From NCBI GenBank assembly GCA_024762925.1, contig JANTGM010000011.1:1-64000 (forward strand): a DNA stretch of 64,000 bases. The letters run 5' to 3'. This DNA is from Kofleriaceae bacterium. GTDB lineage: Bacteria; Myxococcota_A; Polyangia; Haliangiales; Haliangiaceae. The translations under genes were made by a program, and so were the position numbers. The notes beneath the pieces are model-generated. The model worked only from the letters and a program-made list of their open reading frames with translations, did no database searches and was not told where the DNA came from. Positions 1 through 640 of this stretch are shown here, piece by piece; positions within the stretch are counted from its first letter, which is position 1, and the number at the start of each line of letters is the position of its first letter.

Positions 1-129
1 CTAGGGACAAAAACTAGCTAACGCTTGCGAGCAAGCGTGGTGTTTCGCGCCTTCGGCGCTGTGGTCTGGTGTTCCACACCAGAAATTAGCTAGTCTCCGT
101 CCCGCTAGGGACAAAAACTAGCTAGCTAG
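1..129. repeat. Cloverleaf-like inverted-repeat cluster with a collapsed second copy
   Basis: An outer stem, CTAGCTAA (14-21) with TTAGCTAG (86-93), encloses three hairpins: ACGCTTGC/GCAAGCGT (21-28, 31-38), GCGCC/GGCGC (47-51, 55-59) and TCTGGTGT/ACACCAGA (65-72, 76-83). GGGAC (4-8) can also pair with GTCCC (99-103). The lead sequence CTAGGGACAAAAACTAGCTA at 1-20 recurs at 106-125. There it runs straight into GCTAGTCTC, as if the hairpin block had been removed from, or never inserted into, the second copy. The element may continue to the left of the window. No coding potential was seen. The structure is read directly; its function is unknown. Confidence 0.75.
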
Positions 130-283
130 TCTCATAACCACTGACCGAGTATGAGGGCCCGAGCTAAGGGCAGGTCCAGGAGCAAGAGCGCAGGCATAGT
201 GGCTCTACGGCAAGGTTTCGCGACGTCAAGATGCGCCGCAGATCGGGACTCAGACGACCGAAGAGGTTGTGAGATACGCTCTA
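130..283. repeat. Possible MITE or IS-end remnant with imperfect terminal inverted repeats
   Basis: TCTCATAACC (130-139) is inverted at 265-274 as GGTTGTGAGA, with 9 of 10 bases matching. CTAG lies immediately before 130 and again at 281-284, which would fit a 4-base target duplication. Bases 241-282 reappear in inverted orientation at 3287-3328 with only two mismatches. No open reading frame lies inside. I infer a non-autonomous mobile element or an insertion-sequence end; the family is not established. Confidence 0.5.
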
Positions 284-640
284 GTTCTTGGGAACCTTCT
301 CACCGTTGTGGCAGGTCTTGCAGGTAACCGCTTTTTTGAAACCTTTGGCCTTTAGGGTTTTGTTGGCGGCGTTCGTCATCCGCATCATGTCTCGCGCCTT
401 CTCCTTCATCTCGGAATCCTTGTCGAGTGCTGCCATGGAGTGGCAGAAATCGCACTGAACACCCAGGGCCTTAGAGAGAGCCTTCATGTCCTTCTTGATC
501 ACCTTCTTATCAGTGTCCTTTGGGTAGACTTTCAGGTTCTTTGCACCGCCAGCATCGGCAACCGGAGCGGAAAACGTAAGGGCATAGCCTGCAGTGAGAA
601 AGCCGCCAAGGATGGTCGTGAGAAGTAGTTTGTTGCGCAT
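281..640 (-). CDS. Periplasmic di-haem c-type cytochrome
   Basis: A 119-residue protein with an N-terminal signal peptide (about residues 1-30, ending near VADA). Two haem c attachment motifs follow, CDFCH at 63-67 and CKTCH at 107-111. The spacing and lysine-rich mature sequence resemble the small cytochromes related to the photosynthetic reaction centre cytochrome c family that occur in non-phototrophic Proteobacteria and Acidobacteria. A role as a periplasmic electron carrier is inferred. The start at 640 is the ATG directly before the signal peptide; a longer upstream reading has no signal-like sequence. It lies 140 bases downstream of the MaoC gene on the same strand. The repeat region begins at its stop codon. 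Confidence 0.85.
   Translation of the reverse strand: MRNKLLLTTILGGFLTAGYALTFSAPVADAGGAKNLKVYPKDTDKKVIKKDMKALSKALGVQCDFCHSMAALDKDSEMKEKARDMMRMTNAANKTLKAKGFKKAVTCKTCHNGEKVPKN

Follow-up and report, generated by a model that had tools for sequence, protein, structure and literature searches.

Organisation of the repeat at the start of contig C11

The window, a stretch of 64,000 nucleotides that begins with the opening base of contig C11 (own genome 6.79 Mb in 246 contigs), opens with a compact group of palindromes on the forward strand (positions 1 to 129). The three hairpins, the outer stem and the additional pairing that a preliminary description had reported are all there: the hairpins lie at 21-38, 47-59 and 65-83, the 8-bp outer stem is formed by CTAGCTAA (14-21) with TTAGCTAG (86-93), and GGGAC (4-8) is complementary to GTCCC (99-103). 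The 140-nt stretch folds at -57.9 kcal/mol, against a mean of -39.0 kcal/mol for dinucleotide shuffles (z -5.4), none of 200 of which equalled it. In addition, 20 nt are directly repeated, at 1-20 and 105-124.

Complete copies elsewhere in the genome allow this arrangement to be taken apart. They read TA, then GCTAGTTTCCGTCCCGMTAGGGACAAAAACTAGC (module A, a 34-bp palindrome), then TAACGCTTGCGAGCAAGCG...GCGCCTTCGGCGC...TCTGGTGTTCCACACCAGAAATTAGC (the body, with three hairpins), then TA, and measure about 106 bp (106-108 bp), which is too small for a transposase gene. Their terminal inverted repeats (GCTAGTTTC / GCTAATTTC in this genome) are 9-11 bp long and imperfect. Module A at the left end of the window is represented by its 3' 18 bases (1-18) and lacks the other 16 of 34 because the contig starts at base 1; it is complete in C13, C99, C200 and other contigs. 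A TA (19-20) marks its junction with the body (19-88), which consists of hairpin 2 (21-38; ACGCTTGC GA GCAAGCGT), seen in both folding and covariation, hairpin 3 (47-59; GCGCC TTC GGCGC), with two-sided change at two pairs in relatives, and hairpin 4 (65-83; TCTGGTGT TCC ACACCAGA), whose 3' arm and tail form the right terminal inverted repeat in the relative. The right terminal sequence GAAATTA (82-88) repeats the left end GCTAGTTTC in inverted orientation, apart from one mismatch; its final GC has been displaced to 125-126 by a further module A lying within the right end.

This further module A (89-122) is complete, stands alone and has a TA on its left (87-88) and another on its right (123-124), the latter read as a probable target duplication; the TA that closes the full element follows at 127-128, within CTAG (126-129). 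Removal by eye of the 34 bases and one TA gives GAAATTAGCTAGTCTCATAACC, which starts with the right end of the other copies. A lone module A would thus have entered the TA of a full element's right end (GAAAT[TA]GCTAG), with CTAG repeated at the nested junction and other cut points compatible as well. In intact copies GGGAC pairs with the GTCCC of its own hairpin (GTCCCGCTAGGGAC), and both the GGGAC/GTCCC pairing and the outer 8-bp stem of the window bridge two separate copies of the module. The adjoining second copy that had been proposed does exist, as the 20-nt direct repeat, yet it is a complete module A and not a flank from which a hairpin block is missing. Likewise, the idea of full and short versions of one dispersed, mobile-looking repeat holds to the extent that both versions occur, except that the short one is a complete module A. 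The reading of the pair as an occupied and an empty site is not supported, the short copy itself being, in all likelihood, an inserted module.

Directly to the right lies another CTAG-bounded repeat, assigned to family 2 (129-281, forward strand; terminal inverted repeat GAGCGTATCTC), with a left end that is about 6 bp short. Window positions 203-285 match the right part of family 2 at 87%, a widespread segment with matches at 35 or more sites across the genome. The CTA at 281-283 is also the minus-strand TAG stop codon of a cytochrome-like gene (ORF 281-811). Further on, at 2340-2415, a short in-frame tandem repeat (CTCAGCCTTGGCCTT) is part of a coding sequence and gives an AEKAK-type repeat on the minus strand. 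Over the window as a whole (1-64000) there are 123 CTAG sites, whereas the base composition would predict 239. ARAGORN found no tRNA or tmRNA in the window. An integron attC site was considered on account of CTAAC...GTT-like motifs and provisionally set aside.

Copy number and distribution

The unit is far from unique. A BLAST search with positions 1-129 gave 43 matches in the 6.8-Mb genome, and covariance model R1 gave 70 matches there and 86 in a relative of the same genus, the MAG of Kofleriaceae bacterium isolate NORP324 (G001), where the model counts include halves of one copy at contig ends and overlaps on opposite strands. A contig end lies within 10 bp in 29 of 40 tabulated places, so that the repeat is a main reason for the breaks in the assembly and its copy number is uncertain; it stands behind many of the contig breaks.

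Pattern and model searches found no element in a third genome of the genus (G002). The search of the genome collection returned six stretches, all from isolate NORP324, while the plasmid and phage collections held no DNA match and the two-hairpin pattern was absent from the IMG/VR results. The model also gave weak hits in 13 further genomes; the six of these that were inspected (L122-L127) did not carry the element's sequence and were treated as noise. In the searches run, the element thus appears limited to two species of one genus. Copies at six loci adjoin unrelated genes, on either strand; one copy in G001 lies directly downstream of groEL.

Flanks, lone modules and truncated copies

With up to three mismatches allowed, module A occurs at 44 places in the genome, and the reversed control at none. 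It stands alone in nine of the 44 (the nested one of the window and eight others among the fetched loci); the remaining rows comprise module A with body, copies cut by contig ends and truncated copies. TA stands at the end of the left flank in 39 of 44 rows and CTA in 36, and the right end is followed by TA in all 18 rows that could be scored (TAG in 17), 26 cut or truncated rows having been set aside. Six truncated copies consist of module A and hairpin 2; their ends are ragged, with CTAG at five of the six junctions (L035, L061, L067, L070 and L076 are among these copies). A second short palindrome, the 25-bp GTTCGCGTCCAACTGGGACGCGAAC, is found between TAs directly after the body at six fetched loci (L009, L011, L012, L013, L208 and L209), once with a substitution and once on the other strand.

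The typical copy in G001 reads CTA, GGAGCCTGGTGTTAAACAAGTTCAACACC..CTCC TAACGC..body..CACCAGACACC, TAG, is about 108 bp long and has related arms (GGNNNCTGGTG) at both ends. Among 50 G001 copies with enough flank, [CT]TAG stands on the left in 33, CTAG on the right in 25, and both in 16. For the 12 copies in which both ends are canonical, the base before the left TA is C in seven, T in four and G in one, and CTAG follows on the right in 11. The left tetranucleotide differs from the right CTAG in four of these 12, which fits a duplication of the 2-bp TA and not of the 4-bp CTAG.

Exchange of modules between elements

The left palindrome and the three-hairpin body are found in different combinations. 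In one copy of the own genome (L206) a hairpin 1 of the G001 type precedes an own-genome body, and in several G001 copies hairpin 1 is replaced by unrelated, complementary hairpins. G001 also holds a second three-hairpin body of different sequence under its own hairpin 1 (TAAGCGTTTGGCTTCGCAAACGCTT..CCTCCTTCGGAGG..GGTGTTTTTCTGACGAAAAACACC). This second body was missed by model R1; a model search of 11 genomes matched it 14 times, in G001 alone. On four contigs of G001 (C392, C777, C792 and C277; loci L167, L182, L188 and L175) the element forms tandem arrays with a spacing of about 98-107 bp.

Covariation of the stems

Compensatory changes, for which a check had been proposed together with the copy count, are present in the relative. 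In alignment A3 (36 copies, 32 pairs) 93.0% of cells pair. The rows were picked from 75 listed hits (91 matches) for an interpretable hairpin 1, a choice that favours paired stems; several array members were left out, as were copies that had degraded and some whose hairpin 1 is unrelated (e.g. L118, L119, L167 and L188). Two-sided change was observed at 14 of the 32 pairs, against a mean of 6.7 in shuffles (reached by 0 of 500) and 9 in the best slid control. The first eight sequences had given a weak signal, with two such pairs, a number reached by 135 of 500 shuffles. RNAalifold by itself predicted hairpins 2-4, with covariation at six of 20 pairs. Column conservation is 0.90 in the stems (64 columns) and 0.75 in unpaired positions (52 columns).

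Over the 32 pairs, G-U cells (31) do not outnumber A-C cells (41), as is also the case for hairpin 1 (16 vs 29), whereas hairpin 4 is opposite (11 vs 5). We read the covariation as a sign that DNA palindromes, and not one RNA strand, are constrained or repaired, the G-U/A-C comparison being a weak test.

Candidate transposases

Three transposase profiles were searched, and in the own genome the curated cut-off was passed by the IS630 type (DDE_3) alone. PF13358 (DDE_3) gave four matches there, three of them above the cut-off (including C87 and C40) and all of them fragments; G001 contained one fragment below the cut-off (L210), near which no ends matching the element were seen, and G002 none. 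PF01797 (Y1) had no match in the own genome, with the control positive in five of 14 genomes, and PF01609 (DDE_Tnp_1) matched once, below the cut-off, in the own genome and not at all in G001 or G002. These searches revealed no intact transposase and no autonomous IS with the element's own ends, in an assembly that is fragmented at repeats.

A decayed IS630-type transposase is located at C40:20117-20700 (L081, L082), between a family-4 left end (20117) and the end of a family-2 repeat. It contains CMDNLNAHK and YSPDFNPIEAAWAKMK, which we take to be IS630-type motifs. On C140 a decayed DDE_3 fragment follows a family-3-like end (CTAGTGTGGGATCC). Since both fragments lie behind ends of the CTAG type, the co-resident CTAG-bounded repeats are tied to IS630-type genes; for the four-hairpin element the TA/CTAG flanks are the sole tie. 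The transposase pieces at C140:1-260 (L213) and C170:1-115 (L212), both at contig ends, are nearly identical, and their likeness suggests a multi-copy IS that is missing from the assembly.

Interpretation

The element is probably a non-autonomous, MITE-like repeat built of hairpin modules, which would most likely be moved in trans by a DDE transposase of the IS630/Tc1-mariner type, at a TA target and preferably within CTAG. As judged from sequence, an IS630-type enzyme would move the element, TA would be duplicated rather than merely flank it, and the hairpins would be constrained as DNA; the duplication is suggested by the flanks and by the single nested case, itself open to other cut points. 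Some observations sit less easily with this. A decaying MITE would not be expected to show compensatory changes, the terminal inverted repeats are short and imperfect, flanks of the expected kind on both sides occur in only 16 of 50 G001 copies, and the ragged truncated copies are left unexplained. Since neither an IS carrying the element's ends nor an empty site was found, we do not class it as a proven IS630 MITE.

Two other explanations start from the stems themselves. The element could be a structured RNA family, or a set of regulatory RNA elements (terminators or mRNA stabilisers, for example), that has been copied around while its hairpins were selected as RNA. The strong covariation, the higher conservation of stems than of unpaired columns, the second body with the same architecture in another sequence and the G001 copy downstream of groEL would all agree with this, but no strand is marked as RNA by an excess of G-U over A-C (with hairpin 4 as the exception), at six loci unrelated genes, on either strand, adjoin the copies, the bounds are TA/CTAG, and modules also stand alone. 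Rfam gave no match in the window at the gathering threshold, so that no known RNA family was recognised. We consider the RNA explanation, which the preliminary description had raised, unlikely. Palindromes could also spread and be repaired without any transposase, if replication stalling and template switching copied, corrected and tandemly multiplied them, with CTAG acting as microhomology. Such a process would account for the complementary but unrelated hairpin 1 of several copies, the G001 arrays, the truncations joined at CTAG in five of six cases and the two-sided changes without bias towards an RNA strand; by itself it leaves unexplained the dispersal to dozens of unrelated loci and the exact ends beside TA, and it seems quite unlikely as the whole explanation.

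The other two alternatives invoke a different enzyme, and both appear highly improbable. Palindromes with a tetranucleotide at the foot, in high copy number, recall REP-like or IS200/IS605-like elements that move as single-stranded DNA through a Y1 (RAYT) transposase, as had been suggested for this locus; against the suggestion stands the lack of any PF01797 match in the own genome under a working control, and the tetranucleotide stands at both ends and is CTAG instead of GTAG. A MITE of the IS5 type that duplicates the 4-bp CTAG would resemble MITEPsy1 of Pseudomonas syringae, which is 100 nt long and is inserted, with duplication, behind CTAG or YTAA (PMC3189936). Against this stand the DDE_Tnp_1 results (a single own-genome match, below the cut-off, with G001 and G002 negative) and the tetranucleotides that differ in four of 12 copies.

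To return to the IS630-type reading, the outer arm of a hairpin forms each end of the element, so that two facing ends are already present on a single terminal hairpin. This would explain both the occurrence of a lone module A between TAs and the change of partners. A bolder version, which we put forward tentatively and hold to be doubtful, is that the ends are exchangeable hairpin cassettes. The smallest units able to move would be the 25-bp GTTCGCGTCCAACTGGGACGCGAAC and the 34-bp module A. Each would have two facing, putative transposase-binding arms, and they would seed larger elements by landing beside a three-hairpin body and taking over its end. Formation of DNA hairpins would be part of transposition or maintenance, which would explain covariation without the bias of an RNA strand. 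It might be speculated that single-end insertion, as for ISY100 in vitro, lies behind the truncated copies.

The usual view of bacterial MITEs is that of decayed ISs whose ends are fixed. In the two genomes of one genus considered here, whole palindromes replace one another at the ends, palindromes of 25-34 bp also stand alone between TAs, and the stems stay complementary. If confirmed, this would offer a simple route to new MITE families, and the hairpin end as a minimal transposon becomes testable.

Comparison with known systems

No described equivalent of the element was found in searches of the open-licence PMC literature. The target preference of IS630 is given as the TA in CTAG (Tenzen and Ohtsubo 1991, cited in PMC2170065), and ISY100, of the same family, uses a TA target that is duplicated, single-end insertions being its commonest product in vitro (PMC2170065). 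Other palindromic or CTAG-associated repeats share some of the element's features. MITEPsy1, with ISPsy2, is a 100-nt MITE at CTAG; it is of the IS5 type with a reported 4-nt duplication (PMC3189936), whereas here no IS5-type transposase exceeded the cut-off. GTAG REPs with their RAYT are also palindromes present in high copy number, and a tetranucleotide lies at their foot (PMC3733652); the present element has CTAG on both sides, measures about 106 bp and resides in a genome where no Y1 transposase was found. Correia/NEMIS and ERIC elements also end in TA, are structured and span about 100-200 bp (PMC2229807), but they differ in sequence and lineage, and an end-to-end stem-loop is described for them in place of four hairpins in a row.

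The closest resemblance would be to RUP in size and target, and to BOX in modularity. BOX of pneumococcus (PMC3049150) is likewise composed of modular short repeats with lone modules and a predicted structure; its modules and ends are others, whereas the element studied here regularly has TA/CTAG flanks and palindromic modules at its ends. Finally, RUP of pneumococcus, with IS630-Spn1 as its partner, is a dispersed repeat of about 107 bp. Like the present element it has short terminal inverted repeats and is bordered on either side by TA, and an IS630 transposase is believed to move it in trans (PMC2229807, PMC3049150). Its published descriptions present one simple unit, whereas here a matching IS was not found, the left palindrome and the three-hairpin body recombine, and the stems covary.
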